Source: Armatimonadetes bacterium 55-13 (GTDB lineage Bacteria > Armatimonadota > Fimbriimonadia > Fimbriimonadales > Fimbriimonadaceae). From it: a DNA stretch of 64,000 bases. Position numbers and translations under genes: made by a program. Each line of letters opens with the position of its first letter. The stretch's first letter is position 1. This document shows positions 197 to 34,572 of this stretch, one piece after another. The DNA is taken from assembly GCA_001898035.1 (NCBI GenBank), contig MKRX01000006.1:762150-826149 (forward strand). Direction: 5' to 3'. The notes under the pieces are model-generated. The model had not been told where the DNA came from. It ran no database searches and saw nothing but the letters and a program-made list of their open reading frames with translations.

Positions 197-658
197 TCAG
201 GTTGTTGCAGCGCCTACGACTGCAATTGCGGGTTGAGGCGGGACGGTTCCCCGAAGCATAGGTTCATTGGGATCGTTTGCGACGCGTTCGCCATCTTTAG
301 TCAGCAAATCAATCAATTCCTTTGCTTCCTTAACAGCCTTTTGAGGATCATCTTGGATTGGCTTGCCGAGTTCATAGTCGGCTCTGATCCGCTTTTTATG
401 GAGACCCCTGCCTCTTGAGCCAATATCCTTGGTATTGAGGTCGGCAGAATACCAATTCCATAAAGCTTTGTGAGACGAAACTTTGGGAGGCTTTTTGTAA
501 CCCCTCTTTTTCGCCCACGCAAGAGCGGCGTGATAACACGAGTAATAGGAGTGCCTGATAGCATCCCGGGCGAAGAGCTCATAGCTGTCTTCGCCCGGAG
601 TCGCATGGATCGCAAGGGCTTCTGCCCATCCGAGAATATCTGGAAACTTAAGCGGCAT
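197..658 (-). CDS. HEPN-domain protein, putative RNase-type toxin
   Basis: 153 residues. The all-helical sequence carries the HEPN-type signature ARDAIRHSYYSCYHAALAW near residues 30-48 and, further on, KKRIRADYEL followed by a long C-terminal helix. RX4H spacings occur at R31-H36 and in SRGRGLH, but neither can be assigned with certainty to the catalytic RX4-6H of HEPN RNases. The ATG at 658 lies 11 bases inside the end of the upstream gene, so the two are translationally coupled. HEPN proteins are often toxins or nucleic-acid effectors with a small antitoxin, so a role as a prophage-encoded toxin or exclusion factor is inferred. Confidence 0.6.
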   Translation of the reverse strand: MPLKFPDILGWAEALAIHATPGEDSYELFARDAIRHSYYSCYHAALAWAKKRGYKKPPKVSSHKALWNWYSADLNTKDIGSRGRGLHKKRIRADYELGKPIQDDPQKAVKEAKELIDLLTKDGERVANDPNEPMLRGTVPPQPAIAVVGAATT

Positions 659-1049
659 TGGGCTCAACCACACAGAAGATTAATTCGTCTTCGATGTGGC
701 GAGCGGATTCTGGCATTCTGAACTTCACGATATCGTCCAACTTCTTTCTGGCTTCTGATCCGCTGATCTTAGCCTCAATATCGACAGACAATTCTGGTTC
801 ATCTTCAGAATCCGGGTCGGAAAATGCCTCAAACGAGACCTTTTTGACCCAATCCTCGTTCATTAGCAGCGTGATCAAATCCTTGGCCGCTGCCTGAAAC
901 TCGGGGCGCTCTCGGAGAAGGGCAAGAGTATCTTCAGAGGGGGTCATAAGAATGGACTCCTGAAAACCGTTGCTTAAAGCTTCGGTTTCGGAGCGCTTCT
1001 TCATCAGGTCAATTGCGACCCTCTTTTCCTCCAACGTGCAAGTGCTCAT
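648..1049 (-). CDS. Unknown acidic protein, partner of the HEPN protein
   Basis: 133 residues, acidic, with an EAFSDPDSEDEPELSVD stretch and no recognised domain. There are two adjacent ATGs; the second (1049) is chosen because GGAGG lies 4 bases before it and only 1 base before the first. It is the first gene of a two-gene operon with the HEPN protein, which starts inside its end. By position it could be the antitoxin or a specificity partner. It shows no nucleotidyltransferase motif, so it is not an obvious MNT antitoxin. Confidence 0.6.
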   Translation of the reverse strand: MSTCTLEEKRVAIDLMKKRSETEALSNGFQESILMTPSEDTLALLRERPEFQAAAKDLITLLMNEDWVKKVSFEAFSDPDSEDEPELSVDIEAKISGSEARKKLDDIVKFRMPESARHIEDELIFCVVEPNAA

Positions 1050-1214: not shown

Positions 1215-1715
1215 ATGGCAAAAGTCATGGCCCTTAAACCATGCCCGTTTTGTGGTGGCAACCTTCCTGAGCACTCACAATCGTGTGTGCATTGCGGGAG
1301 GTCTTTACAAATATCTTCTCAAACGGAAGAATGGCCCGACTGGCTTTTGAAATTGAACTCGCTGCTAACCAGCGAACGGTCTCCAATCTCGATTTCTCAG
1401 CTTTCAAAGACCGAATTACGAAGTGCGTTCGACGACGGATTGACGCCCGAAGAGTTTGCCAACTCACCTAGAATTTTCGTTCAGAAAGAGAATCCTGAAC
1501 CTGTGGCCACTCCGGTTCCTCGCCAGAGCTATGAGTGGTCCAAAGCTCCCCCATATTCTTGGAAGCAGCCGCAAGAAAGGCCCGACTGGTGGTCATGGCG
1601 TTTTGTAATCATCGCCACAGGAATCATGCTGGCCGTCATGACGATTACAGGCATCATTGGCATTGTGCAGACTCAAAGATTGCAGCAAGAGATTATTCAA
1701 AGATCTAACCGATAG
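1215..1715 (+). CDS. Zinc-ribbon protein with C-terminal membrane anchor
   Basis: 166 residues. A zinc ribbon lies at the start (CPFCGG at 10-15, CVHCGR about 15 residues later). The middle is low-complexity and rich in Pro, Trp and Ser. One membrane helix follows (FVIIATGIMLAVMTITGIIG), with a short charged tail. The in-frame ATG four codons downstream (MALKPCPF) is an equally possible start. Function is unknown. It converges with the tape measure gene and overlaps its end by 11 bases, which suggests a late addition to the phage edge. Confidence 0.6.
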   Translation: MAKVMALKPCPFCGGNLPEHSQSCVHCGRSLQISSQTEEWPDWLLKLNSLLTSERSPISISQLSKTELRSAFDDGLTPEEFANSPRIFVQKENPEPVATPVPRQSYEWSKAPPYSWKQPQERPDWWSWRFVIIATGIMLAVMTITGIIGIVQTQRLQQEIIQRSNR

Positions 1716-2973
1716 CGCCTAGGTTCATCTCTCGCGCCAAGCGACCGATCCCTAGTTGGCTTAGGTGACTTGGCATTCCGTGCCCTTTTAGATCATCGAA
1801 TCTATCGCCCATTCGATTGACTGCGGAAGTGAATTTGTCGGCAGCGTTGTCGATCTTTTCCGCCGCTGATTTCATTGGTTCAGACTTCTGATCACCAGAG
1901 TCCATTAGCTTAGATAATCCATACATCGCGCCACCAACTATCGCTCCACCCATGAAGATTCTGCCAAGAGCAGATAAGTCTCCGGCCATGAATTCGGCTA
2001 TGGCTGTCTTCACTCCAAGGTCTAATGCCGCAGCGGCTGCCATTCGAAAAGCTGCTTGAAGTTTTCCGACAACTCCAACAACAAGAGCGACCGCGCCGCC
2101 AAAAGCGGTCATCGCCACGATCCAATTCGGGACGCCTCCGAGAATGTCGTTCAGATTGCCCCACCAATTCGCGAACAGCGTCAGCAACTCGACACCCATA
2201 GTAAGGACTGGAAGTAGTTGCTCAGCAATCGGATAGATCACTCGTTGAAGAAGAGTCTCGCCCGCCATGTCACTGGCAAACGAGAACCTTTGGATAGCCT
2301 GGCTTGCCCCCGTATCGTAACTATCCGCCAGTTCCGTTACTGCTCGGCGTTGGTCGCTCGTGAGGCGAAGAAGCGGAAGCAACGACTCGGCGCCTTTTTC
2401 ACCGAAGATCTCCGCCATGATCTGTGTCTTTCGGAGGCCGTCTTTCATCGTGCCAAGCCGTTCCGCGACCTGATTAAAGATGTCCAGGCCCGATGCGTTG
2501 GGATTTGGCATGATCCCCAACCGTGAAAGTCCGGCTTGCCCCTGTGCGGTGAAGACCGACCTCGAGGGTCTGGCAAGATCCTTAACGACCGAAGCATCAA
2601 GTCCGGTGACTCGCCCAAGGACGACAGCTCTCGCTGAGTCCTTAAGCGATGACCCCGTCAACTGCGATAGATTCATCACCTTCGTCGCAAAGTCGACATA
2701 CGAGTCGGTCATCTTTGTGATGGCGAAGGCGACGATCGTGAACGCGCCAGCGAGCTTCGCCGCCCCCTTCAGGTTCTCGTTGATTACGTCTCGTGCGGCG
2801 ACACGTGCCTCTTCGTAAGCTTGCTTCATCTCCTTGGCGCCAGAGGTCGTGTGAAACCTGTTCATCGCCGCCGCATAGCGTTCTTGCGCTGTGGACAGCT
2901 TGTTGAACGCTCCAAGGACCTGGTCTGCGCCAGTGGCCAGGAAGACGGTGACAAGTCGATCTGCGTGTGTCAT
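1705..2973 (-). CDS. Tail tape measure protein (short)
   Basis: 422 residues. The N-terminal half is helical and coiled-coil-like (LSTAQERYAAAMNRFH). Hydrophobic segments follow near residues 75-95, 275-305 and 335-350, as is usual for tape measure proteins. It follows the frameshifted tail chaperone, the classic gene order, and its ATG overlaps the stop of the frameshifted product (ATGA). At roughly 1.5 angstrom per residue the tail would be about 60 nm long, at the short end for siphoviruses. No tail-tip gene follows it in the window. Confidence 0.75.
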   Translation of the reverse strand: MTHADRLVTVFLATGADQVLGAFNKLSTAQERYAAAMNRFHTTSGAKEMKQAYEEARVAARDVINENLKGAAKLAGAFTIVAFAITKMTDSYVDFATKVMNLSQLTGSSLKDSARAVVLGRVTGLDASVVKDLARPSRSVFTAQGQAGLSRLGIMPNPNASGLDIFNQVAERLGTMKDGLRKTQIMAEIFGEKGAESLLPLLRLTSDQRRAVTELADSYDTGASQAIQRFSFASDMAGETLLQRVIYPIAEQLLPVLTMGVELLTLFANWWGNLNDILGGVPNWIVAMTAFGGAVALVVGVVGKLQAAFRMAAAAALDLGVKTAIAEFMAGDLSALGRIFMGGAIVGGAMYGLSKLMDSGDQKSEPMKSAAEKIDNAADKFTSAVNRMGDRFDDLKGHGMPSHLSQLGIGRLAREMNLGAIG

Positions 2974-3573: not shown

Positions 3574-4029
3574 TTATGCGTACACGATGCTGTCGCCGTT
3601 GAAGACCCCGCCAACGTAGGGGCCAACATTCTCGATGTCAAGAGACTCCGAAGCAGCTTCTTTATTGCGTTCGTAGGAAGCCTCCGAGATACCTCCAATG
3701 AGATATATCGTCCCACCACCTTGGACTTCCGTGAACTGGATGTAAATATAGTCATCATTGATGCCGAGAGCCAAAGCAGTCGAACCACCCGTCCGAACGA
3801 CATTTGAGAGATTGGCTTTCCAGTCATATGTGGTCCGCCGTTTCTCTTTGATCTGACCAGACGATGGAGTGACATCCACCCAATCGTTGGAGATGGTGAC
3901 TTTGATGTCCTTCCATACACCATAAAAACTGATTTGATTTCCAAAGACAAACGAGCCGTTTGCCAAGTCGTCACCGCCGGATTGGACGAGGTACACGTAG
4001 GCATCACGGCCAACAAGAACTTTGCTCAT
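3574..4029 (-). CDS. Major tail tube protein
   Basis: 151 residues, predicted beta-rich (YVYLVQSGGDDLANGSFVFG, YIYIQFTEVQGGGTIYLIGG). It includes a KVTISNDWVDVTPSSGQIKE stretch like the tube-forming beta-sandwich of siphovirus major tail proteins. Placed between the tail completion genes and the chaperones, exactly where the tube protein is expected. Confidence 0.7.
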   Translation of the reverse strand: MSKVLVGRDAYVYLVQSGGDDLANGSFVFGNQISFYGVWKDIKVTISNDWVDVTPSSGQIKEKRRTTYDWKANLSNVVRTGGSTALALGINDDYIYIQFTEVQGGGTIYLIGGISEASYERNKEAASESLDIENVGPYVGGVFNGDSIVYA

Positions 4030-4041
4030 GATTAGGATCTC

Positions 4042-4518
4042 CTATTTGCTGTAAGCGCGGCGTTGTGCCTCGCGGAATCGGTTGAAGAACTTCTGATCTT
4101 CGACTCGGTGAATGGCCTCGATAATGGGTCGATGCCGCATCTTGTCCGTCCCTTCCATGGCCTTGGAGTAAGGCGCATCGTTCCAAAGCACGACGATCAT
4201 GCGGTGAGGTGTGAAGGCTCCCGAGCTTCGCCAAGAGCTATCGAATAGACCTTCTTGCTTGTTGATGATGGCGAGGTTTCCGCCGTTTGGCACTGGCCCG
4301 CGAGGACCTCGCCAGTTCGACCTTCCATACCCGTACGGGTGATTGAGACCAGGTGGCGGTTTCGATAACTCTGCTGTGCTGGTGGTACCGTGACTGAATG
4401 AGTGAGCCGCAAACTCCACGCTGCCTCTTGAGGCAAGAGTGGCCCGCTGAAGCTCTTTTTTGAGTGCGATCGCCCGTTCGCGATTGATCTTCGCCAAAGC
4501 GGCTGCGTTCGTCCTCAT
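4042..4518 (-). CDS. Tail completion / neck protein (HK97 gp10-like position)
   Basis: 158 residues with a helical basic start (INRERAIALKKELQRATLAS) and a Gly/Pro-rich middle. The C-terminal segment (MEGTDKMRHRPIIEAIHR...) recalls the RPFLRPA-type end of HK97 gp10-like tail-completion proteins. Its start overlaps the previous stop. The functional call rests mainly on position between connector and tube genes. Confidence 0.5.
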   Translation of the reverse strand: MRTNAAALAKINRERAIALKKELQRATLASRGSVEFAAHSFSHGTTSTAELSKPPPGLNHPYGYGRSNWRGPRGPVPNGGNLAIINKQEGLFDSSWRSSGAFTPHRMIVVLWNDAPYSKAMEGTDKMRHRPIIEAIHRVEDQKFFNRFREAQRRAYSK

Positions 4519-4853
4519 GTCCTCATCTCGGCGCCCAGAAGAAACACTTCCGCACCGTTCACGTGTAGGCCCTTTAGGTAGTCGTTCGCAACCTGGCGGG
4601 CTCGATCAAACATCCAATCGAGAAGCTCTTTTAGCCTTGGGTCAAGAACCTTTGGCCCATCCCAATGCATACAGCAACTTCCCGCTTGGTCAAACGAGAA
4701 CGCCGCAAGATGCGATCTCGCCAAGTCATCGTTGAGACGAGTAGTAACTCGAAAGTCATAGTCGGTTTCCGAGAGAGACTTGACCAAGACAATCGGGGTA
4801 GCAAACATCGCCGCCCGAGCATTCGCGCGTTCAATTTGAGGGGTGAGAATCAT
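4515..4853 (-). CDS. Putative tail terminator / neck protein
   Basis: 112 residues; the ATG at 4853 overlaps the upstream stop as ATGA, which fixes the start (an earlier in-frame codon at 4880 is rejected). The sequence is alpha/beta (IVLVKSLSETDYDFRVTTRL). No motif is recognised. Its place just before the gp10-like gene and tail tube suggests a neck or tail-terminator role; this is inference from gene order. Confidence 0.5.
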   Translation of the reverse strand: MILTPQIERANARAAMFATPIVLVKSLSETDYDFRVTTRLNDDLARSHLAAFSFDQAGSCCMHWDGPKVLDPRLKELLDWMFDRARQVANDYLKGLHVNGAEVFLLGAEMRT

Positions 4854-6787
4854 AGGACAAGGGAATCCTCGATGTAACACTCGATCGAGAGGACCGAGAT
4901 GGTTATCTCGCGTTGTTTGTGTTGGGACGCAAACCGCTGCTGATACTCGTTTCGGCGATCATATGGCGTACTGACGACTCGTGTCTCGTAGGCACTGGCC
5001 TCCGGCGTCTCGCCAAACATCTGATAGTCGGCAAGGATCCGCTGCTGAAGCGCAAAGAGCTCCTCGCGTTGTCTTTGGGCGTTATCGATGCCAGCCAGAG
5101 TCTTCCGAACGATGACGATGTCGACCGGCACGACATGCGCCACATCTTGAACGGCGAGATCAATTTCCGAAGGCGACTTCGCGACGATCACCGCGTAGTC
5201 GAGCTTTAGCTCTTCGCCGACCGTACCGTCAGGCAGGGCCTCTGGAATCCCAGTCAGTCCGGGAAAGACCGACTTGATGTTGTATCGAATCGCGGGTATC
5301 AAGCCGCGGTGGTTGCTTCTGCTGACTACCGCAAGTCCTTGACCATTGCGGAACTCTACGGAGTTCACGTGCGCGACCGCTTCGACTCCGCCAAGTTGAT
5401 GACCCATCGAGAATCCAATGGTCTCGATGTTGTTTCTCGTCTCCGAGGCAGTCAAAGAATGCGCTTGAGCAAATGTCGCCTGGGACACGAGCTTTGCCAG
5501 GTCAATGACGCCCACGCCATGGGCATTCCGCACCGATCCACTCGCCGGCGTGATGATGACGTCGGCAGGTGATAGGAATTGACCGCCATGGCGGACGGAA
5601 ATCGTCTCCGTGACCGTGAAACCGGTGTCTAGGCTGAATTGTCCGCCATTCTTGAATGAGACTGCATCAACGACCGAAATAGGCGCGGTGAGCGTAAACC
5701 GCCCGCCGTGCTTTAGGATCGGAGTCTCAACTGCTCGGATGAGATCTGCCGAGCCTAGCCTATGAGCATTGCTGAACGACGCTGATGTGATCCAAGCCCC
5801 GGCCTCAGATTGTTCAACACGCTGAGCGTTTTGAAATTCAACGGTGTCAGTGATCTCGATCGACGACGATCCACCGAATATTTGTCCGTTCTTAAAGGAA
5901 GGCGTTTCCGTGGTCGCAATGGACGAAGAACTTGCAAACCGATGTCCCTGCAGGAAGGATAGAAACTCGTAAGCAATGCTCCCGCCAGGCGTATAGGCGC
6001 TGATTGCTACCAACCGCTGAGCGTTCTTAAAAGCCAGACTCTCGGAGATTGCAATGCTTGAGTTGTTTGCCCAGCCGATTCCGTTGTTGAAGGATACGGT
6101 TTCAGTTCCGCTTACTGGCGGTGGACCTTCGATCGAGAAGAACTGTGCGTTACCAAACGACACAGTTTCTTCATAAAATCCTGGAGTCGAAAGAGAGTCG
6201 GTCGCGGTGAAGGCTTGTGCGTTGCTAAACGATATGTTTTCCGCTGATCCACCGGATGCGGTTACACGCGGAATCTTGGAATAGGCAGTAAGAGCAAAGC
6301 CGCCATAGATGAGTTTGAAGTCGAATGTGTCGCCAGGCGAGACGTCCGCACTCCGTAGTTGAAAACAAAACTCAACCTCATTGTCGGAGCCCGGCGCCAT
6401 AAACACCGAACTCGAAACGCCCGTTGTTTCCCACGCGCCTACCGACGCAAAGGTGTTTGATCCATATTGAGTGAGTTGGCGAGTGATCGTGTCGCCATCC
6501 GCAAAGTGTGACGACAAGCTCGCGCGAACGTTCGTCGATGCGCCCGTTACGTTGTTGTAAGAACCTCCGTTCTTGGAATACTGAAGTTGAACGACGCCAG
6601 GCGGCGGGCTGATGCCAGCTCCGACCGCGGTGTCCGAAATGACAAATCGAAGCCGAATATTCGTATCAAGCGAAGCCGAGATATCGACATCTTCAGCCGC
6701 CGACCATGTTGCCGGGTCCGCCGTGCCGTCGTCGTTCGCAAATCGCGCGTGACGCTGATCGAATTGTGTCGGCCCTCCTGCTGGCAT
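4850..6787 (-). CDS. Virion protein with about 15 tandem 20-residue repeats
   Basis: 645 residues in three parts. Residues 1-180 look like a beta-sandwich (DTNIRLRFVISDTAVGAG). Residues 183-490 hold about 15 repeats of about 20 residues with the pattern [TS]-V-x-F-x-N-[AG]-[QH]-x-[FL], for example AVSFKNGGQFSLDTGFTVTE and TISVRHGGQFLSPADVIITP. Residues 500-645 are alpha/beta (VDIVIVRKTLAG). It lies among the head-tail joining genes, so a virion location is likely. The regular strand-sized repeat suggests a beta-solenoid, possibly a fibre or decoration. No family is recognised. Confidence 0.7.
   Translation of the reverse strand: MPAGGPTQFDQRHARFANDDGTADPATWSAAEDVDISASLDTNIRLRFVISDTAVGAGISPPPGVVQLQYSKNGGSYNNVTGASTNVRASLSSHFADGDTITRQLTQYGSNTFASVGAWETTGVSSSVFMAPGSDNEVEFCFQLRSADVSPGDTFDFKLIYGGFALTAYSKIPRVTASGGSAENISFSNAQAFTATDSLSTPGFYEETVSFGNAQFFSIEGPPPVSGTETVSFNNGIGWANNSSIAISESLAFKNAQRLVAISAYTPGGSIAYEFLSFLQGHRFASSSSIATTETPSFKNGQIFGGSSSIEITDTVEFQNAQRVEQSEAGAWITSASFSNAHRLGSADLIRAVETPILKHGGRFTLTAPISVVDAVSFKNGGQFSLDTGFTVTETISVRHGGQFLSPADVIITPASGSVRNAHGVGVIDLAKLVSQATFAQAHSLTASETRNNIETIGFSMGHQLGGVEAVAHVNSVEFRNGQGLAVVSRSNHRGLIPAIRYNIKSVFPGLTGIPEALPDGTVGEELKLDYAVIVAKSPSEIDLAVQDVAHVVPVDIVIVRKTLAGIDNAQRQREELFALQQRILADYQMFGETPEASAYETRVVSTPYDRRNEYQQRFASQHKQREITISVLSIECYIEDSLVL
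5318..6241 (-). repeat. Coding tandem repeats, about 60 bp unit, degenerate
   Basis: This DNA encodes the 15 repeats at residues 183-490 of the 645-residue virion protein. The units are conserved at protein level (F-x-N-[AG]-[QH] core every 20-24 residues) but diverged at DNA level, so this is an old repeat array kept by selection rather than a recent expansion. Confidence 0.65.
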
Positions 6788-6838: not shown

Positions 6839-7279
6839 CTAGCCCTGGGTGTCGAGCCAGTTCATGTTGACGGTGATCTGCGACCCATTCGTGACGTTGT
6901 ACGTCGTCGAGAGGGGAGCCGATCCAATGAGAACGCCCGTGTTATCGCTTGTAGACGCCAATGAGGCGTGCGTGATGCCGGAGAAAGTTCCAGTGAAGGT
7001 GAATGTCTGCGCCGCGACCGTGAGCACAGAATCCGCACCACTGAGCGACTCGGGGAAGTTTGTGGCGTTGAACGCGATCGTCTTTCGCGCGTAACCCGCG
7101 CCCGAGACTTCGTTCAGGTTTGAGGTGAGAGTGTCGGCGGCGGCGGCGTCACTCGGCCGTCCCGAGTTTCCGTCTAGCTGCCGAAGCAACATGTACAGAT
7201 TGGCAGGACGGGCCGTCGATCCATTGAGGATCTGGTTGACCCACCGGCGTCCGACCGTGTGCATGATTTGACTGCCCAT
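6839..7279 (-). CDS. Phage structural protein, function unknown
   Basis: 146 residues, rich in Thr, Ser, Ala and Asn, probably beta-stranded (TVAAQTFTFTGTFSGITHAS, YNVTNGSQITVNMNWLD). It lies between the connector genes and the repeat protein and is read with them. A head decoration or minor tail role is plausible from position only. Confidence 0.5.
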   Translation of the reverse strand: MGSQIMHTVGRRWVNQILNGSTARPANLYMLLRQLDGNSGRPSDAAAADTLTSNLNEVSGAGYARKTIAFNATNFPESLSGADSVLTVAAQTFTFTGTFSGITHASLASTSDNTGVLIGSAPLSTTYNVTNGSQITVNMNWLDTQG

Positions 7280-7334: not shown

Positions 7335-7712
7335 TTAGGCGATGCCATCTGGAAGGACCTTTAGGAACTCCAGTAGAACGCGAATGTGAGCGGTTTCCTC
7401 GAAGCGGGCACGTACAGCAGGTTTGCCACGAATAACCCAGCACTCGCCTGACTGATCCTGGATGACGCGGCCATTCTTGATGTCCGTGCGATTAGCGTTC
7501 GTAACCTCAAAGTAGGCGATGGCGGCTAGAGTGGCGTCCATTCCAATGGCCAGAGCGGAGTCTTCGGCTTGGCGACCACCGCGGTGGATGTTGCAAGGGA
7601 TTCCACCTCTGAGTAACTCCGCTGCTTCGGGAAGCACGTTGAGAGTCGCATCGATTTGCAACTCCGTCGTGTAGAGCTTCACCTGCTCCGTAAATCGGTC
7701 GGCAACTGGCAT
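7335..7712 (-). CDS. Head-tail connector / head closure protein
   Basis: 125 residues. The composition and order (IHRGGRQAEDSALAIGMDAT, GECWVIRGKPAVRARFEETA) fit the small beta-barrel head-closure proteins found after the adaptor gene in siphoviruses. It follows the minor head protein within 5 bases. The call rests on size, position and a weak resemblance. Confidence 0.5.
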   Translation of the reverse strand: MPVADRFTEQVKLYTTELQIDATLNVLPEAAELLRGGIPCNIHRGGRQAEDSALAIGMDATLAAIAYFEVTNANRTDIKNGRVIQDQSGECWVIRGKPAVRARFEETAHIRVLLEFLKVLPDGIA

Positions 7713-8387: not shown

Positions 8388-9353
8388 TTAGCCTCCAACC
8401 GCGTACGGTCGAAATCTGAAGTATCGATCGAACTTCTCTTGCCGCATCTTCGCCTGCTCCTGAAGAGCATCCGCGGCCTTGGCAAGATCCACCGACTCAT
8501 CGCCTTCTTTGTAGGATCCTTGTCGGCCAAGAGTGACGGCTCGCTGCGAGAGCGCTTTAGCTGCGCAAAGATCGATGATCGCATCGAGATCCGCGTCAGG
8601 AATGGTCTCGACCGTCTGTTGCGCGTTGTAATAAAAATCGAGTGTAAGGTCAGCAACCGGAACCGGCGTGATCTGTAGGATCGGTTGACCAGCCAGCGAG
8701 AATCGAAAGGTCACGCCAGATGGAAGAATATTCGCATTCGGATTTCGCCAGTATCCGGGATACGGAATGGCTCCGCGAACGTTCTGCGAAGCGTTTGGCG
8801 TCGGCCCAACAAGTCTCATCGCGTTGGTGTACGACGAATCGTAATAGGAGGACGTCTTCTTCACCAATGCCTTAGCACCGATGGCGATGTCCAGCGATTC
8901 CTGATCTGGCGATACGAAATCTGCCGGTAGCTCATAGGTGTCGACACCCGCGAGAATCTGCAATCCAACCGTCGGCTTGGTTACATAGGCGCCACGGGCA
9001 TTGGTTTTCGTCGCTGCGCCAAACGTAATCCGAGTTGGAGCGCCAAGCGGGACCGGATACGAAGTGTCTGGCTCGACTGCTGTTAGTGTTAGCGTTTCTT
9101 GGCTTGCTCCAAGGCCGACCTTGACCAGGTCACCTACGGACCACGGGCCGCCGGTCACAGTAATCGAGGTGTCACCTGGGGCCAAGGAATCTTGAAGGAT
9201 GCCCGCTCCGATCCGCCGCTGCACAGGGACGTACCGCGAGTACTCCCGAATCGCAAGAGCAATGGCCGACGCCCGCGCATCATCGCCAAACTTCGACCCG
9301 GTGGGGTCATCGAGCGACGACATCAGCAATTGATCGAGACGGGTGTAATCCAT
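8388..9353 (-). CDS. Head-tail adaptor protein
   Basis: 321 residues from the ATG at 9353. A GTG at 9389 is in frame but lies inside the hairpin between this gene and the capsid gene, so the later start is preferred. The N-terminus (LLMSSLDDPTGSKFGDDARA) and the C-terminal helical part (DAIIDLCAAKALSQRAVTLG) match the general architecture of phage adaptor/connector proteins, with a beta-rich insert between. It follows the capsid gene, as usual for the first connector. Confidence 0.55.
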   Translation of the reverse strand: MDYTRLDQLLMSSLDDPTGSKFGDDARASAIALAIREYSRYVPVQRRIGAGILQDSLAPGDTSITVTGGPWSVGDLVKVGLGASQETLTLTAVEPDTSYPVPLGAPTRITFGAATKTNARGAYVTKPTVGLQILAGVDTYELPADFVSPDQESLDIAIGAKALVKKTSSYYDSSYTNAMRLVGPTPNASQNVRGAIPYPGYWRNPNANILPSGVTFRFSLAGQPILQITPVPVADLTLDFYYNAQQTVETIPDADLDAIIDLCAAKALSQRAVTLGRQGSYKEGDESVDLAKAADALQEQAKMRQEKFDRYFRFRPYAVGG

Positions 9354-9362
9354 GAGGATAGG

Positions 9363-9395
9363 AAAGGCCGTAGTCGGATTTCCGACCACGGCCTT
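9363..9395 (-). terminator. Intercistronic hairpin after the capsid gene
   Basis: AAGGCCGTAGTCGGA and TCCGACCACGGCCTT form a 15-base-pair stem with one mismatch and a tiny loop. On the minus strand only TTTCC follows, so this may be a weak terminator or RNA-end protector that lets capsid transcript exceed connector transcript. Confidence 0.5.
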
Positions 9396-9410: not shown

Positions 9411-12400
9411 TTACCGGAGGATGATCGTCTTGGCGACTGGGTTGATGATGTTCCCGCTCTGGTCCTGCACTTGCGGCGTGCAGAGGACCGAGTTCTCTTC
9501 GCCGTAGTAGACCTCTTTGGCGATGATCAGACCGTTCGCATCGTAGCTTGGGTACGGTCCCTTGAGTTCGAAGGGAGTGTCGATGCCGTACTTCGTCGAA
9601 CCCTTTCGAGTGAGAAGGATTCGTCGATCGAGGCCGTTCCACGGAGCGTTGATGCGCGCCATGTTGATTCCGGTTCGCCCGCCGAAGTACTCGGGCGTCG
9701 GGAAGAGTTCCGATCCCTTGGGCGAGTTGAGCTGATAGAACAACGTTGCCCGCGTGATGTTGGTGGACGCCACCAAGCTCATAACCGCGAGGTTAGGCTT
9801 GCTGTACCGAGGAGCACTTCCCATAACCGCCGCAGTGTTGTCGAACTGCCCAAGCAATCCATTCAAGTACTGCTCGTAGGTGATGCCCGTCCCAAGCGTG
9901 ACGTTGTTGATCTGGAAGTTGTCGAAGTTCGTCGCGTAAGCGTAACTGATAGTGGCCGTGCCACCCGTCAGGACGCCCGCGCCATTGCCCCAACCTGCAG
10001 CCGTATAGCCAGCCGCGTTGAAGACGACAACTCCATTCTCCCAGTCCACCGCGTAGGTCGGTGAGGCCAACCCAGGGATCTGCTGGATTGCCTTGTTGAC
10101 GTCAAGATATCCCATGACCTGAGCGCCCGCACCACCGATGGTGATCGGATTCTTGGTCGTGGTCGTGACCTGACCCGTCGCATTGAGATCCGTCTGCACT
10201 CGGGGGCGAACGATCGGATCAGAACCATACGCGGTGCCCATGTACGGGGCCGACGTTCCGTTACCTCGAGTCTTCACGCGGATGCCAGCAACCACGCCCG
10301 CGCCGTAGGTCGCGTAAGCGTCCGTGGCAAGGACAACCGCACCGCTGGCAACCTTGGTCGGGTTCAGGTTCACGGTCACGCCGCCGGCAGCGTTGTAGCT
10401 GGACTGGTTGGCGAGAGACGGCGATTCAGCCGCCACCGTGACCGCACCATATTCGTCGGAGATGGCCAGCATCTCATCAAGAATTCCCTTATCAACACGG
10501 CGGCTCTTGTCGTATCCAAGATGGAAGAGCGTTCGCCCAACGACGCCGTAGTTCGCCGGACCGTTCCCCATCGCCTTGATCGCATCGCGAGTCATCGATG
10601 CGGCGATGCGTCTCCATGCAGGCGCAAACGACAGCCACACCGTCTTGACCGTTCCTTCGTCGATACCTGATCCTTCAGGTGTGAAGAGGCCCGCGTCGAA
10701 GGTTCCACTCGCGGCGCCGTAGCCCGCTGGATTGGAGTAATACTCGACCGGAACGCGGAGAACTTGGCCGATACCTCCAACCGATTGTTCCCAACCCACG
10801 CTACCCGAGGCCCGCATCCCGGGACCGATGCCCTGAACGAAGTCCAGGCTCTGCATGTCCTGGAAGCTTTGAATGATAAATGCGTTTGCGATCGTCGGCT
10901 GATTGAACAGCTGGCTCGTGGTCGTCGCGTCACCGCCCACCAATTTTTGCATTCCGTCGAAGAACGCCTTGTCGGAGAAGTTCGCCTCGCCGTCGATTCG
11001 CTTAAACCAGGCCTCGACCGAGTCGCACCCGGCGCGGCTAACGGCAAGTTCCTCGACAATTCGATCGGTGAACTTTCGGTTGTGCTCACGTCGCTTCTTG
11101 ACATCAGGATCATCGGGATTGATGTCGTGAGACGTTGCGCGGCAGTGATCGTCCGCCGCTGCGAGGATCTTATCGACGCCTTCCATCCACGGCTTAGCCG
11201 TCGATTTCACGCGAGCGTTAGCGCTTGCTGGATCGTTCACGGTGTCTCCCTTGACGAAGCCAAGCTTCGCCAATCGTTCGGGGGCGAGGATCTTCGAGAG
11301 TGACTCGATTTCGTCGTCGACGAGACCGGAGACCGACTCAGCACTTTGAGCGAGCTTTCGAACTCGACCGACAATGTGATCTCGCTGCTCGGTCGTGAGC
11401 TTCTCAAGTCGCTTATCGTCCTTTAGGGAATCGACCGCGGCCTGAATCTCCTCGTCTCGCTTCTTGTCGGCTTCGGCCTTTTCCGCGTCGCTCAGGAGCT
11501 TCTTGACCTTGTCGGCCTCTTCCTTTGTAAGCACTGGAGCGGGAGCCGCATCAGCCTTCATGCTCCCCTGCGAGTTCGGAACCGTGGCCGTGTTCGTAGC
11601 CGGGTCAGGACCGCGTCCATGCCGCTCGATTTCAGATCCCCAGCCGGGCCCGCCATTGCCAACCTGCGAAGCGAAAAGGAACGTCGGAGGCGTGCGATCG
11701 GGCACGTAACCACCTTCAGCCATGTCCGCTTCAAGACGCAACGCGGAAGGAATTTCCGCGGAGAGGTCTTCTTTCGAGTCGTGCGCCAAGACGAGCGCGT
11801 CGTAGAACGCCGTTCTGGCCGTCAGCACTTCCTGCTGTGGCGCCTTCTTGGTGATCAATTGCGCCACGGCTTCGCGAAGGCGCTTAAGTGTTTCGTTCAT
11901 TTTGGGTTTGTCCTCCGCCGCAGAGTCACGGCGCTCGATTTCGTCTTCGCAAGCCTCAAGCTCTTGAAGCACTTCGTCTTTGAGCAGCACGAATTCGCCT
12001 GCTCCGGTGGTAGCGGGATTGTCGACATCGTCGACGGTTAGAAAAGTCTGCTCATCGGCAACAAAGACGCGTTTGCCCTGGGCCGATCGAAACCGGCCTT
12101 TCATCTTCCAGCGGACGGAAACGCCAGGTGGGTTGCCACGTCGATAGGCGTCGGCGAGTTCGCGGCCCTTCGGTGTATCGAGGATCGTTCGAGTCCCCCA
12201 AACCCAGCCGTCTTCGCCAACATCCTCGATGTCGTCGACACGGGCCGTTGTGTTTTCGGGATTGGCGACGTATTTCTCTTGGCCACGGACACGAACGACG
12301 TCCGGGTGTCGCCGCTCGCTGAGCATCGCTCCTGCGCGAGCTACTCGCCGTCCTTCATCTACAGAAGCTTGGAGCGACTGACGGGGGTAAAGGCGTGCGT

Positions 12401-12572
12401 TCTGGTTGATTGAGTCGGCACGCGTGAACTTTTGCCGGACGCGCAAAATGCCCCCATTCGCGCTATCCGGCAAGAGTTCGAAATCGCCGCTGCCAACCGG
12501 GGCGGCTTCGATCTCATCGGCGAAGATGACGTCCTCAACAGCGTCACCAAGGAGCTTATAATCCTGTTCCAC
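9411..12572 (-). CDS. Prohead protease-scaffold-major capsid fusion protein
   Basis: About 1,053 residues. The GTG at 12572 is chosen because GGAGG lies 6 bases before it; a TTG at 12599 is the longest option. Part 1 resembles prohead serine proteases: RKFTR-type start, catalytic His in SERRHP (about residue 89) and Ser in GVSVRW (about residue 152). Part 2 is charged and helical (EEADKVKKLLSDAEKAEADK), like a scaffold. Part 3, from about residue 545, is HK97-fold-like capsid sequence (TTTSQLFNQPTIANAFIIQ). In most phages these are two or three genes; cleavage by the protease would release the capsid subunit. No separate protease or capsid gene is present. Confidence 0.75.
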   Translation of the reverse strand: MEQDYKLLGDAVEDVIFADEIEAAPVGSGDFELLPDSANGGILRVRQKFTRADSINQNARLYPRQSLQASVDEGRRVARAGAMLSERRHPDVVRVRGQEKYVANPENTTARVDDIEDVGEDGWVWGTRTILDTPKGRELADAYRRGNPPGVSVRWKMKGRFRSAQGKRVFVADEQTFLTVDDVDNPATTGAGEFVLLKDEVLQELEACEDEIERRDSAAEDKPKMNETLKRLREAVAQLITKKAPQQEVLTARTAFYDALVLAHDSKEDLSAEIPSALRLEADMAEGGYVPDRTPPTFLFASQVGNGGPGWGSEIERHGRGPDPATNTATVPNSQGSMKADAAPAPVLTKEEADKVKKLLSDAEKAEADKKRDEEIQAAVDSLKDDKRLEKLTTEQRDHIVGRVRKLAQSAESVSGLVDDEIESLSKILAPERLAKLGFVKGDTVNDPASANARVKSTAKPWMEGVDKILAAADDHCRATSHDINPDDPDVKKRREHNRKFTDRIVEELAVSRAGCDSVEAWFKRIDGEANFSDKAFFDGMQKLVGGDATTTSQLFNQPTIANAFIIQSFQDMQSLDFVQGIGPGMRASGSVGWEQSVGGIGQVLRVPVEYYSNPAGYGAASGTFDAGLFTPEGSGIDEGTVKTVWLSFAPAWRRIAASMTRDAIKAMGNGPANYGVVGRTLFHLGYDKSRRVDKGILDEMLAISDEYGAVTVAAESPSLANQSSYNAAGGVTVNLNPTKVASGAVVLATDAYATYGAGVVAGIRVKTRGNGTSAPYMGTAYGSDPIVRPRVQTDLNATGQVTTTTKNPITIGGAGAQVMGYLDVNKAIQQIPGLASPTYAVDWENGVVVFNAAGYTAAGWGNGAGVLTGGTATISYAYATNFDNFQINNVTLGTGITYEQYLNGLLGQFDNTAAVMGSAPRYSKPNLAVMSLVASTNITRATLFYQLNSPKGSELFPTPEYFGGRTGINMARINAPWNGLDRRILLTRKGSTKYGIDTPFELKGPYPSYDANGLIIAKEVYYGEENSVLCTPQVQDQSGNIINPVAKTIILR

Positions 12573-13638
12573 CACTGTCCTCCAAGGTCTTTGAGGCAAC
12601 TTGGCGAAGACCGATTAGCTCCAAGATGAAGTCATCGATACTTGGGACCGAGAACTCCGTGTCTTGCGAGTCCCTATAACCCGATTGCCGGGCATGGAGT
12701 GGGACATTTGCGAGGATTTTGACCGTTGCGGAGCCGTCTGCTCGGACGATCCCCTCGCGCCATCCGCATTTGCTTTGGAGATAGACCTCACCATCTACAG
12801 GTGTCGTAACAAACCACCCAGCCATGGCAGTGGCGACCTTGGCTTCCGTTAGGTCGTAATCAACGTCGTCCTCATCGAAAACCGGGACGGGCTCTTCATC
12901 GGTGATAGGTCGACGCCAGACGCCGTCCTCGTCTTGTTTCCAAGCCGTGATGTCGAAAACCGTGTTTCCTTGAAGCCACAACCGCTGTTCGTCACTCAAC
13001 GCGTGAGGAGTCGGCAACTGCCCCTGCGTGATCCTTTCGATAAATGCCTCGAGTGGGCAATCGAGCGGGGTCATCGGATGCATCGGGAAGGAGCCTTCCT
13101 TCTGGAGGAATGGATCGATCTCGCCCTCGACAAGTGGCGATTCTTGACTCAAAAGAGCATTCAGTAACTCTTTGGTCGTTGACTCAGGGTCAGGCACGAT
13201 CACGGACTTGGTGTCTGGGACATCAGCCTTCGGACCATCATCCTCTCCATCGTTATCCTCATCGGTGATGGGGCGACGCCAGACGCCGTCCTCGCCATGC
13301 TCGAACGCTGATAGGTCTGCCTGCATGTCGTCGAGCCATTTGTGTTGGTCTTCGCTCAACGCGACTGGCATGGCTGCTTCTGGCCGGGTCATGTACTCTT
13401 CGAAGTCGTCCATCGACATTTCAAGAGGCATCGATCCCGCACTCGTTTGAGGAGTCTCAGATGGCGGGTCAGCGGTCGGATTCGACTGACCAACAGCCGC
13501 CAGGATAGTCGCGAGAACATCCTCTTTTTTAGCGCCAATCGATGGGACTTTGATGTTGTTTGCCTTTGCGAACTGCTTGAGTTCAGGCAAGGTCATTTCG
13601 TTAATGCTCGGCGCGGCGGCCGGTGTCTCAGTGCTCAT
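12556..13638 (-). CDS. Head-region protein with HeH/SAP-like start and duplicated module
   Basis: 360 residues. Residues 15-46 (MTLPELKQFAKANNIKVPS...) look like a SAP/HeH or Rho-N helical motif. Two copies of a 60-residue module follow at about 70-128 and 189-249; each starts P-L-[ED] and ends in EDGVWRRPITDE. The C-terminal region is beta-rich. It lies between the portal and the protease-capsid gene and overlaps the latter. No family is recognised; a head assembly or decoration role is inferred from position. Confidence 0.6.
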   Translation of the reverse strand: MSTETPAAAPSINEMTLPELKQFAKANNIKVPSIGAKKEDVLATILAAVGQSNPTADPPSETPQTSAGSMPLEMSMDDFEEYMTRPEAAMPVALSEDQHKWLDDMQADLSAFEHGEDGVWRRPITDEDNDGEDDGPKADVPDTKSVIVPDPESTTKELLNALLSQESPLVEGEIDPFLQKEGSFPMHPMTPLDCPLEAFIERITQGQLPTPHALSDEQRLWLQGNTVFDITAWKQDEDGVWRRPITDEEPVPVFDEDDVDYDLTEAKVATAMAGWFVTTPVDGEVYLQSKCGWREGIVRADGSATVKILANVPLHARQSGYRDSQDTEFSVPSIDDFILELIGLRQVASKTLEDSGGTGL

Positions 13639-13651
13639 GTGTGTTCACCTG

Positions 13652-15154
13652 CTAGTTCACGGGCGAAGGTTTCGCCTTGCCGTTGGAGAGTTTTGAAAGT
13701 TGAAGGTCTTGTTGCCGACCAATTTGAGCCGCTTGCTGCTTCTCTTCGTATTCGCGTTGGTCGGAGATCTCTTGCTCAATGCGCTTCATTTCCTCCTCCG
13801 GATCATCGATATCCGTGAACTCGGCGAGGATTTGAACGGCGCGTTGGAATGAAATCAGAGGCGTCGGCTTAGCGGATCGCAGTTTCGTGACCCAATCGAT
13901 CACTTCTTGAGGCTTTTCGATCGATCCGGACGGGATCCGAACCGTGAAATCTATGAACTCTGGAAGAATGCCGGCGAGGAGAAGTGCGGTTTCGAAAATG
14001 TCCTTTACGACGGCCTCGATGATCTCCGTAAGGACTTGAGTTTCCTTGAGCCACTCTTCGCGAAGGTCCTTGACGACGTCGCGATTGATGGACTCAGAGT
14101 CGAGGTTGAAGATCGGACCGGGAGTCGGCAGATCGCCGGAGACATACACGTTTTGCGCATATCGAATGTCGTCTACTTCGTGAACATTGCGGTCACCTTC
14201 GAGAACCTCAGCCTTAACAAGACCGTTTCCATAGATATCGAGTGCGATGTCCATCGGGTCGAAGACATCACGCCTGCCTTCAACTTTGCCATTGATCTCT
14301 CGAAACTCCTTGACATGCTCGGCCTCTCCGGGGCTACCCTCAGTACCAATGTTCCAGAGGACTTGTTTTGCCGCTCGGCTCATTCGACGGACCGATTGAG
14401 CTTCCTCGGACAGATTTAGAAGATCCCAATGGCGCCGACCGGTGAGAATCTCTGGCTGTCCATATCGTTCGCCATCGATTGCGTCCCACTTAACGTGAGT
14501 GATGACCCATTGAGCAAATGACGCCACGGTCTCTTGCGTGAGGACGTCGATCTGTTCAAACGCTTTTACCGGGTCGATAAATTCATCCGTGTCATCGGTC
14601 AAGCGCTCCATCGATGCCGCCGGCATGCGCTTTACGTCTACTAACCGGCCTTCGCCAGCAATCTTCTGAACAAAGAGATCGCCTTCGACGATGAGCATCC
14701 AAGCCCACGAAAACAGTTTCGGCTTTACGATCTCCTGCACTTCATCGGCGATGGCTCTGGCTTGATTAGCCATTCCCGACTCACCGTCGACCATGATAGT
14801 CGCGCCTTTTCGGACGGCTTCTCTAGCGAACTTCTTGGTTGCCCGTCGCGCCCGACCGTCATCATCGATCATCTTTCGACAATCGGAGATGACTGCCCAT
14901 CGGTCGTATCGCTGCTGGATATTCAGCAGGTGCGCGATCGATGGCGAGGTGGTACCCGATGTACCCTGTTCCGTCGTTTGTGTCGGATCAACCCTCTTGA
15001 ATGCTCGATTGAAGGCATTCTGGATCCGCGCGATTAGACCTTGAGCCTGTGGCTTGACATGCTGCGCCGGTCGAAAGGCAGTAACTTGACCCGAGTCAAT
15101 GACCAGGCGGGTGCCGTCTTTGAGCTCGAACTCCTGACGTGTGGTGCGTGGCAT
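13652..15154 (-). CDS. Portal protein
   Basis: 500 residues. The central part fits phage portal proteins: IQQRYDRWAVISDCRKMIDD near the start, FSWAWMLIVEGDLFVQKIAG, a long helix (DVVKDLREEWLKETQVLTEI) and a Gln/Glu-rich C-terminus. Portals form the 12-fold vertex ring for DNA packaging. It starts 3 bases after the terminase stop, in the standard order. Confidence 0.85.
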   Translation of the reverse strand: MPRTTRQEFELKDGTRLVIDSGQVTAFRPAQHVKPQAQGLIARIQNAFNRAFKRVDPTQTTEQGTSGTTSPSIAHLLNIQQRYDRWAVISDCRKMIDDDGRARRATKKFAREAVRKGATIMVDGESGMANQARAIADEVQEIVKPKLFSWAWMLIVEGDLFVQKIAGEGRLVDVKRMPAASMERLTDDTDEFIDPVKAFEQIDVLTQETVASFAQWVITHVKWDAIDGERYGQPEILTGRRHWDLLNLSEEAQSVRRMSRAAKQVLWNIGTEGSPGEAEHVKEFREINGKVEGRRDVFDPMDIALDIYGNGLVKAEVLEGDRNVHEVDDIRYAQNVYVSGDLPTPGPIFNLDSESINRDVVKDLREEWLKETQVLTEIIEAVVKDIFETALLLAGILPEFIDFTVRIPSGSIEKPQEVIDWVTKLRSAKPTPLISFQRAVQILAEFTDIDDPEEEMKRIEQEISDQREYEEKQQAAQIGRQQDLQLSKLSNGKAKPSPVN

Positions 15155-15157
15155 GAA

Positions 15158-16876
15158 TTACCTGCTCCGCTTAGGCGGAATGATTCGACCGGACGAGTCT
15201 TGGCCGACCGCGTCTTGGCTTAGGTTCTTTCTCATCAAATGTGGAGGAAGGCCCGTGGACTGCGGCTTTGAAGTCAGAACGTCAGACCGCAACATGAGGA
15301 AATTGAAGGCATCGGCGCCGGCGTCGACCTGGTCATCAAAGTCGTGTGACTCGTCTTCGCAAAATCGTCGATACTCAGTGAGAAGCGGTCGAATCCAGTG
15401 AAGGGTTTTCCCCTCCAGTTCCGTTCGCTTAGTAACCTCATCAAGGAACCGGTCAATGGCAGGTAGGCGCGGATGACCATCTTGCAAAAGGCGGACATTG
15501 CCTTCGTTCCAGCGAGCCGCGTATTTTTCTGCCCGCTTCGCTTTAGTGCCGGTGACGGCTTCGATGACGGCGCCGTGCTTGCGCTGGTCCTGCTGCGCGA
15601 CTTTCTTGCCCGCCGATCCTGGATCCTGAGGCATTCGAACGTGGTACTTAGCGCCGAACCTCGATCGATCCCAGGCGGTGACCATCGCGACCAACGCGTC
15701 CACGTTGTCGGAGCTGAGTTGAGCACGAACGACGTCGAGTATCCAAACAACACCATTGGCCGTTAGAGCCATCAGCACTCCGACGGTAAAGTCGCCCGCA
15801 CCTTGAGTCGCCGCCGTATCCCAAGCTCGAACTATCCGAACAATGCTATCGGCATTGAACTCTTGGACAATGATCGCGGCTTTCTCATCGAAGAAGTAGC
15901 CTGTACCTGCGTAGACCTCATGCTGCGCTTCCTCCCGGAAGGCGAGAATGCCCCAATCGAAAATCTGCTTTTGGCAGACTTCTAGGTCTTGCCCGACCCA
16001 GGTCGGATCCCCACCAATGATGAAATGGCGCGTTCGCCCATCCTCGCATACGCGGCCCTCAGTTTGGAGGTTGATGACCGCAGGCTCAAGGTGGACTTGG
16101 CGATTGGCAAGGAAATCGGCGCGACCGTCGTACAGTTGGGCAAAGATGCCATCCGGAATGATTAGGTTTTGCCCGCCGATGACGGCGCAATCTGTCGAGC
16201 CAGCGGGAAGCAGCTTCTTGGTTATCTGACGGATCTTCTTGGCTGTGGTCTTCGCCGTATCCTCAGTGCCGTCCAGGTCATCGAAGACGATCAGGCCAGG
16301 TCTGAAACTTCCAAGCTTGATACCGCGGGCGGCAACGTCGAGGCCAAGTGCCATGACGTTGAAGCCATGCGCTGTACGGAGCTGATCCTTTCGCCAGCCC
16401 TTTTGATTTCCGAAGACGCCGGTAAGACGTTGAACACCTATCGCCTCGAGGTAGTCACCGATCGACTGAACGTGCTCACGAGCCTGGTCTTGAGTCTCGG
16501 AAACGTAGAGGACGAAGGGACGGGACAGCTTAGCGCCGACATACGCGACACCTAGTTCAAGCGTCGTCGACTTTGCGCCTCCTCTTCCCCAGATCTCGAT
16601 GTCAGGATCAGGCGGAGGACAGTTGAATTCTAGTGAATCAAACCAGTCCCAAACACGTTCGTGGCGCTTTGCAAATGGCTTGCTTGCGACGTGGGGGAAA
16701 TACTGCTTGATCCATGATCGCCAGCCATCCCCTGGATAGAGCGCGTCATAAACCAGCGGATCGCTCTGTGTGTCCATCGTCTCACAAAACTGAAAACCCT
16801 CGACCGCGCCGAGCTGTCCCCAAACATCCAAGTCCGGGAGCGGTTCATCCGCTTTTCTCGGTTTCGCTCGTGCCAT
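15158..16876 (-). CDS. terL: Terminase large subunit
   Basis: 572 residues. The ATPase has a Walker A (GRGGAKST, residues 97-104) and a Walker B (LIVFDD, 195-200). The nuclease part has VRAWDTAATQGAGDFTVGV and a late acidic cluster (DDQVDAGADAFN), as in large terminases. This motor cuts concatemers and pumps DNA through the portal. Its start overlaps the small subunit gene by 32 bases. Confidence 0.92.
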   Translation of the reverse strand: MARAKPRKADEPLPDLDVWGQLGAVEGFQFCETMDTQSDPLVYDALYPGDGWRSWIKQYFPHVASKPFAKRHERVWDWFDSLEFNCPPPDPDIEIWGRGGAKSTTLELGVAYVGAKLSRPFVLYVSETQDQAREHVQSIGDYLEAIGVQRLTGVFGNQKGWRKDQLRTAHGFNVMALGLDVAARGIKLGSFRPGLIVFDDLDGTEDTAKTTAKKIRQITKKLLPAGSTDCAVIGGQNLIIPDGIFAQLYDGRADFLANRQVHLEPAVINLQTEGRVCEDGRTRHFIIGGDPTWVGQDLEVCQKQIFDWGILAFREEAQHEVYAGTGYFFDEKAAIIVQEFNADSIVRIVRAWDTAATQGAGDFTVGVLMALTANGVVWILDVVRAQLSSDNVDALVAMVTAWDRSRFGAKYHVRMPQDPGSAGKKVAQQDQRKHGAVIEAVTGTKAKRAEKYAARWNEGNVRLLQDGHPRLPAIDRFLDEVTKRTELEGKTLHWIRPLLTEYRRFCEDESHDFDDQVDAGADAFNFLMLRSDVLTSKPQSTGLPPHLMRKNLSQDAVGQDSSGRIIPPKRSR

Positions 16877-33995: not shown

Positions 33996-34572
33996 TTCCG
34001 AACACTACACTTCGTGCCCAATGTTCGCCGAAACGGTCCGTTTGGCACGATGGGCCGAGGGAGACCTGCCGGGTTCTCGGAGGCTGGTGCGATTCTCCAT
34101 GGAGATTTATTGGCTTCGAGAAAGCGAAACACATTTCGCCTACTATTGGGACGGTCGGATTTTTCGAGAAAGCTCGACGACCAATGACTTCTATGGATTT
34201 CTGACATCGCCAACCGTTGAAGTGTATGAGCGGACCGTTAACCTATTCTCGTTAACTGCAACAGATCGGCTTGAATATCGTGCAACAACGATCATTTCAG
34301 AATATCCCGTTCAACTAATCAAGGCCGAGCCAGGGAAAAAGTCTCTCGTCAAGACATTCTCCAGTGACATCTTCCTTGGATCAGAAGACGACTATGTGCG
34401 GATTGAGAATTACGATTACGACAAAGGGGAACCCGACTGGGTTCCCGGCGACGTACTGCTAAAGCCTCGCACAGTCGACGAAGTAGTAACGTTCTCGTCA
34501 AAGCGGTCGGAAGAGGAAAACGACCGATCCCTTAGTGACCTACGGGCGCGATGGATGGAGGTAGTCCGATGA
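33982..34572 (+). CDS. Unknown early protein
   Basis: 196 residues from the ATG at 33982, with GGAGG 8 bases upstream. Aromatic, beta-rich sequence (HFAYYWDGRIFRESSTTNDF). Its base composition is slightly more AT-rich than the flanking genes. The stop overlaps the helicase-methyltransferase start, so it may be a partner of that protein. No family recognised. Confidence 0.5.
   Translation: MHASNSEHYTSCPMFAETVRLARWAEGDLPGSRRLVRFSMEIYWLRESETHFAYYWDGRIFRESSTTNDFYGFLTSPTVEVYERTVNLFSLTATDRLEYRATTIISEYPVQLIKAEPGKKSLVKTFSSDIFLGSEDDYVRIENYDYDKGEPDWVPGDVLLKPRTVDEVVTFSSKRSEEENDRSLSDLRARWMEVVR

Follow-up and report, generated by a model that had tools for sequence, protein, structure and literature searches.

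P0001, a 645-aa protein encoded by a prophage of Armatimonadetes bacterium 55-13, carries a long array of 20-residue repeats between two other domains, and its gene lies in the head-neck region of the prophage. We read it as a decoration or whisker of the head-tail joint of a siphovirus-type prophage, with a C-terminal anchor, a repeat stalk and a displayed N-terminal domain, and give this reading a probability of about 0.5. The protein would be held to the neck or upper tail by its C-terminal domain (aa 491-645); the array of 15 units would make a stiff beta-rich stalk, with the N-terminal domain at its tip, probably contacting the host surface or its glycans. Related repeats occur in other phages near portal, adaptor and PHROG 644 genes, and three further proteins of virion type also have the N-terminal domain.

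Prophage and gene order

The stretch of 64,000 nucleotides that was analysed, here called the window, is part of a prophage, in which genes for a terminase, portal, endolysin, DnaB-type helicase and integrase were recognised. The head end of its leftward operon encodes terminase, portal, a 360-aa protein, a protease-capsid fusion, an SU10-type adaptor, and proteins of 222 and 125 aa. Leftward from the 125-aa gene follow a GP4-fibre-like gene, P0001, genes for 121-aa and 158-aa proteins, a tube candidate, a chaperone candidate and the tape measure. The features used below are as follows.

15158-16876, minus strand: terminase
13652-15154, minus strand: portal
9411-12599, minus strand: protease-capsid fusion, 1062 aa (PHROG 207 head maturation protease and weak Peptidase_S77; PHROG 22848, capsid-like)
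8388-9389, minus strand: head-tail adaptor (Pfam SU10_adaptor, E 3.2e-6; Z 15.4 to the adaptor candidate of Brevibacillus phage Emery)
7717-8385, minus strand: 222-aa protein, possibly a minor head protein (PHROG 24776, unknown function, E 0.0026)
7335-7712, minus strand: 125-aa protein, head-closure candidate by position and by look of the sequence; no family match
6839-7279, minus strand: GP4 fibre I-like protein, 146 aa, just upstream of P0001 (PF23140 Gp80, E 8.8e-9)
4850-6787, minus strand: P0001, repeat-bearing probable virion protein, 645 aa (ORF)
6248-6787, minus strand: N-terminal domain of P0001 (aa 1-180), putative mobile decoration domain, shared with L005, L006 and L278
5318-6262, minus strand: 15 repeats of about 20 residues (aa 176-490), core F-x-N-[AG]-[QH]-x-[FL]
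4853-5317, minus strand: C-terminal domain of P0001 (aa 491-645), mixed helix and strand, probable anchor
4515-4880, minus strand: 121-aa protein; no matches in Pfam, PHROGs or NCBIfam
4042-4518, minus strand: 158-aa protein, tail-completion (gp10-like) candidate by position and sequence; no family match
3574-4029, minus strand: tail tube candidate, 151 aa, by its position before the tape measure; weak BACON_2 match, below the Pfam cut-off
1705-2973, minus strand: tail tape measure protein, 422 aa (PHROG 8462, E 3.2e-9)

Phage records gave three relatives through the portal: Microcystis phage yong1, Brevibacillus phage Emery and Virus Rctr41k. Their operons are comparable to that of the window, and P0001 finds no match in them. 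Apparently comparable large proteins to the protease-capsid fusion occur in all three (gp6 in Emery).

Past the tape measure, outside the window in L145, are large ORFs that are probably tail-tip genes. P0001 is encoded apart from these, among the head-tail joining genes, as the earlier note had proposed, and is very probably a virion protein.

Some other features of the prophage were observed. At face value, a tape measure of 422 aa would imply a tail of about 60 nm, which is unusually short. A gene for a HEPN-domain protein and several anti-repressor genes (window 197-673 and L145:16587-19249, both minus strand) separate the tape measure gene from the putative tail-tip genes; they look as if they were cargo put into the tail operon. 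An 854-aa protein (window 34551-37115, plus strand) matches both DNA helicase (PHROG 16) and DNA methyltransferase families.

The repeat array

The core phenylalanine position of the 15 units falls at residues 187, 211, 233, 253, 278, 298, 318, 338, 358, 378, 398, 419, 439, 459 and 479. Spacing is therefore 20-25 residues: 24, 22, 20 and 25 at first, and afterwards 20 except for a single 21. Among the 15 units the core columns hold F in 12, N in 10, A or G in all 15, and Q or H in 11; further columns hold F or L at +6 in 12, and S at -1 and E at -4 in 9 each.

The array is far beyond chance. Compared with itself at lag 20, the stretch of residues 267-492 scores +0.68 BLOSUM62 per residue. Of the remaining lags between 10 and 44, only 40 (+0.25) is not negative; the best value at any lag among 2000 shuffles was -0.15. 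The strict motif occurs 11 times in P0001, against a mean of 0.13 and a maximum of 3 in shuffled sequences. An array of about 15 units with this core had been claimed for 5318-6241, corresponding to residues 183-490, and is confirmed. Tandem Repeats Finder detects no tandem array in the DNA of the gene; the units are therefore old and have been maintained at the protein level.

Searches with the whole of P0001 drew a blank in Pfam, in PHROGs and, even with the threshold relaxed to E 1, in phage records; the PDB yielded no meaningful match. In particular, the protein itself matches no known fibre family. An NCBIfam match at E 0.063 was judged meaningless. The only direct relatives are copies in two IMG/VR contigs, both identical to P0001. 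Among 291 genomes of the phylum no relative was found beyond three matches to the N-terminal domain, and a search of 343 genomes of another phylum, made without a positive control, found none. Repeat pairs were also sought in 85,000 bacterial and archaeal genomes, with only chance matches, such as Q/N-rich proteins.

A wider phage repeat

IMG/VR was scanned with a DNA pattern representing two units 20 residues apart, next with a looser pattern, and then a third time. The first scan found L013, a 444-aa ORF with 12 units of F-x-N-x-Q-x-F, from which tblastn led to protein Pam2_68 of a cultured phage, Pseudanabaena phage Pam2. The looser pattern added L018, L033, L052, L074 (and its near-copy L076), L082, L109 and L118, and the third scan added L279. 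The related arrays have 4-23 units, mostly of 20-23 residues each, with lengths of up to 24 and rarely of 18 or 26. Chance or low-complexity matches were discarded from the first scan (L007, L010, L011, L012) and the second (L020, L048, L124).

P0001 and eight arrays were compared as three-unit profiles using hhalign, with 100 permutations of the P0001 columns inside the unit as controls. The profiles align in register with a score of 27.5 (E 7e-6), and all permuted controls scored lower (mean 6.7, maximum 20.9). An HMM built from one unit of the wider repeat failed to set P0001 significantly apart from shuffles. From these profiles the P0001 repeat is probably, though not overwhelmingly, related to the wider F-x-N-x-[QN]-x-F repeat, a relation that rests in part on the motif used for searching.

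P0001 shares with the wider class its tandem units, the core spacing of F, N and a third polar residue, and a neighbourhood of virion genes. F, N, the polar residue and F/L fall in register; the unit length of 20-25, mostly exactly 20, agrees with the 20-23 of the class; and the profile similarity goes past composition and periodicity. A nearby portal, adaptor or PHROG 644 gene is typical of the class rather than strictly defining, and the SU10-type adaptor gene lies 1.6 kb upstream of P0001. No PHROG 644 gene was found near P0001; a PF23140 gene is present instead, and its protein is unrelated to PHROG 644 by profile comparison. P0001 also differs from the other arrays in several ways. All 15 of its units have A or G at +3, where the others mostly have T or S; it has E at -4 but neither the P at -3 nor the L at -5 that are usual elsewhere; and neither of its flanking domains turned up in the other proteins.

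The nearest library label is PHROG 8501, ‘minor tail protein’, whose HMM is matched by Pam2_68, L033 and L074 but not by P0001. No Pfam model fits the wider-repeat proteins, and no solved relative turned up when the PDB was searched by profile. The earlier note, which knew of no phage family with this repeat, is borne out in part: Pfam gave no model that names it, but a 20-23-residue F-x-N-x-[QN]-x-F repeat is widespread in many phages.

A PHROG 644 gene was seen close to six of ten arrays. It is the neighbour of the array gene or within three genes of it in L013, L033, L052, L082 and L279 (in L279 by look of the sequence), and in Pam2 the homologue is Pam2_64, four genes before Pam2_68. PHROG 644 proteins, the neighbours of many of these repeat proteins, match the solved chain 9d93, ‘Tail wing arm, gp31’. 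The arrays of L109 and L118 adjoin a portal gene (PHROG 1216); that of L013 follows a T7-type portal and a scaffold-like gene, as read from the sequence; and that of L033 is downstream of an SU10-type adaptor. These recurrent neighbours, seen in most of the other contigs, support a role in the neck or upper tail, and do not by themselves fix the position in the particle. The Pam2 repeat protein, encoded in a tail-gene region, speaks against a place at the neck.

Two oddities were met among these loci. In L018:124-4095 (plus strand), directly before a terminase gene, a 1324-aa protein is encoded that has repeated domains between two separate F-x-N-x-Q-x-F arrays. In the Pam2 record (ON014754.1), Pam2_54 carries the annotation ‘botulinum neurotoxin type A’, and the names of further structural genes are just as odd; it looks as if phage structural proteins had been mis-annotated automatically.

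Fold of the repeat

Six P0001 units with nine related rows were given to AlphaFold2. The resulting model (pLDDT 55, pTM 0.44) is right-handed and solenoid-like with about three short strands per unit, each P0001 unit comprising a short strand, an N-[AG] turn and a short strand. It superposes on right-handed solenoids at 3.0-3.3 Å over 114-119 of 123 residues, with Z of 6.5-7.9, below the level of 8 that is notable for the tool. These solenoids are the C-terminal domain of cyclase-associated protein (2b0r and 6fm2), fusolisin (8axg) and Awp1 (7o9q). Foldseek gave nothing significant for the model, and its left-handed helix matches superpose at about 12 Å, which is not meaningful.

Fifteen coils at 4.8 Å would give a solenoid stalk of about 7 nm, and a trimeric beta-spiral would be roughly 20 nm long. 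In a rival reading, with the protein in the same position at the head-tail joint, its repeats may form a trimeric fibre, a triple beta-spiral or another interlocked beta-shaft, rather than a single-chain solenoid. A strand, an N-[AG] turn and a strand in each unit would suit a beta-spiral equally. The fit of the monomer model to right-handed solenoids, at about 3 Å over 114-119 residues, speaks against the trimer, but at a pLDDT of 55. A preference of AlphaFold2 for solenoids that do not exist is a documented artefact with repeat sequences (PMC11795689), and the model counts as weak support. We regard a trimeric shaft as possible while leaning away from it. The readings partly overlap, the shape of the stalk and the anchor being separate questions.

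The N-terminal domain and the polarity of the protein

Residues 8-187 of P0001 match the N-termini of proteins in three of the 291 genomes of the phylum (G065, G080 and G250). The domain is 25-30% identical to the N-termini of the proteins in L005, L006 and L278, with alignment Z of 13.5 for L005 (from G065) and 12.3 for L006; none of 2000 shuffles scored as high. Beyond this domain, the L005 and L006 proteins have no match to P0001. The earlier note took the domain for a beta-sandwich, by impression.

In L005:1453-3099 (plus strand) the domain precedes a tail tube protein, Phage_tube_2 (PF18906, E 2.9e-18; PHROG 290 minor tail, E 4.4e-20), and by these matches L005 appears to encode the decorated tail tube of another prophage. 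In L278:3380-4522 (plus strand), found by a profile scan of IMG/VR (29% identity, E 1e-12), it is followed by a different 22-residue repeat with a consensus near D-V-A-S-A-S-S-V-S-A-P-A-[IL]-G-Q-V-H-A-L-L-A-D. Merging this repeat with that of P0001 was rejected, as the two are unrelated by profile. The L278 gene is downstream of an HK97-type portal, as read from the sequence, so that L278 appears to have the same layout past the portal with another stalk. Joining to different anchors and stalks is what is expected of a displayed surface domain. Its fusion to the tail tube in L005 suggests that the domain lies on the outside of tails, which makes the rest of P0001 the likelier anchor.

The polarity of P0001 could nevertheless be the reverse, by analogy with the lactococcal neck passage structure, whose N-terminal sandwich has been proposed as the collar (PMC6669499). 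The N-terminal domain of P0001 would then be a collar ring on the neck and the C-terminal domain the host-binding tip. The neck passage structure of TP901-1, a 667-aa protein of beta-sandwich, fibre and carbohydrate-binding module, resembles P0001 in plan and size (PMC6669499); as the nearest functional analogue it also speaks for the main reading of P0001 as a neck decoration. More generally, those of TP901-1 and the 936 group are single 500-900-aa proteins with a terminal beta-sandwich, a fibre and a second terminal domain at the head-tail joint (PMC6669499). P0001 is likewise encoded in the head-neck region. The beta-sandwich of neck passage structures is related to BppU; for P0001, Pfam, PHROGs and the PDB gave no match of this kind. 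The lactococcal fibre is predicted to be a coiled coil, whereas P0001 has 20-residue repeats of beta-type look. We know of no sequence similarity between P0001 and the lactococcal proteins. The domain is N-terminal in L278 too, with the repeats after it, as a collar domain would be. In L005, however, it is tethered to a tube protein that has its own place in the particle, which argues for cargo rather than anchor, and we consider the reversed polarity unlikely.

The C-terminal domain

Searches of the phylum's 291 genomes, of viral contigs and of phages gave no true relative of the C-terminal domain; those matches at E 0.003-0.5 in relatives that were inspected proved to be unrelated genes or wrong frames. 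Read from the sequence, its order is helix-strand-strand-helix-strand. A single-sequence AlphaFold2 model has a pLDDT of 41, and its best fold matches are GTPases at Z of 4.0 or less. The label ‘alpha/beta’ given to this flanking domain by the earlier note fits loosely: the model does contain helices and strands, but at that low pLDDT.

The domain might instead be the tail terminator of the phage, the repeats and N-terminal domain extending a neck ring in six copies. No other gene from adaptor to tube looks like a terminator, while the portal relatives yong1, Emery and Rctr41k each have a stand-alone candidate, a 137-176-aa protein whose gene is close to that for the tube or sheath. The helix and strand order read for the C-terminal domain suits a terminator fold. 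The domain shows no similarity to these three candidates, however (Z 0.5, -0.8 and -1.0), the model is unusable and has no terminator among its fold matches, and the 121-aa and 158-aa genes are likewise without an assigned role. A resemblance to planctomycete tail terminators found no support in the 343 genomes of another phylum, searched without a positive control, and was dropped. We doubt that the domain is a terminator. A little more doubtful is the fuller picture of a terminator bearing a 15-coil stalk and an N-terminal surface domain, giving six neck fibres without a collar protein, with that domain moved between lineages onto tubes or other stalks.

Probable place on the particle

The protein encoded just upstream of P0001 scores above the curated cut-off of PF23140 (Gp80) and so belongs to the podophage GP4 tail fibre I family, which P0001 does not; it also matches PHROG 240, ‘head protein’ (E 1.2e-7). 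A second prophage, on host contig C14, has a stronger Gp80/PHROG 240 homologue (L275:8628-9053, minus strand). It lies among presumed tail-tip genes, so Gp80-like genes need not mark the neck.

The PHROG 240 label of the neighbour, together with the head genes just before it, would fit a capsid-surface fibre or other head decoration in place of a neck part. The neighbour, however, matches the GP4 tail fibre family better, and the N-terminal domain is found elsewhere on a tail tube protein; a place on the head is improbable. The fibre-like or decorating role suggested from the repeats gains from both the fusion to a tail-tube protein and the neighbouring Gp80 match. That P0001 is a chaperone, assembly factor or secreted protein rather than a virion component is very improbable: no family match proves a virion role, but its size, its repeats, its position in the structural operon and the tube fusion of its N-terminal domain elsewhere speak against it. 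We infer that P0001 is a virion component, and a head-tail joint decoration anchored by its C-terminal domain is the reading that we retain.

Significance

What is new is best read as a neck decoration whose repeats belong to a class that is recurrent in phages but unnamed in the libraries searched. P0001 is a diverged case of this class and combines it with two further domains, of which one is found both in neck-region proteins and on a tail tube. Phages that are not related to each other have the 20-23-residue repeat next to genes for portal, adaptor and PHROG 644 proteins, and naming it would give a testable stalk role to many virion proteins now called ‘hypothetical’. One solved structure would tell a single-chain solenoid from a trimeric beta-shaft in these phages.
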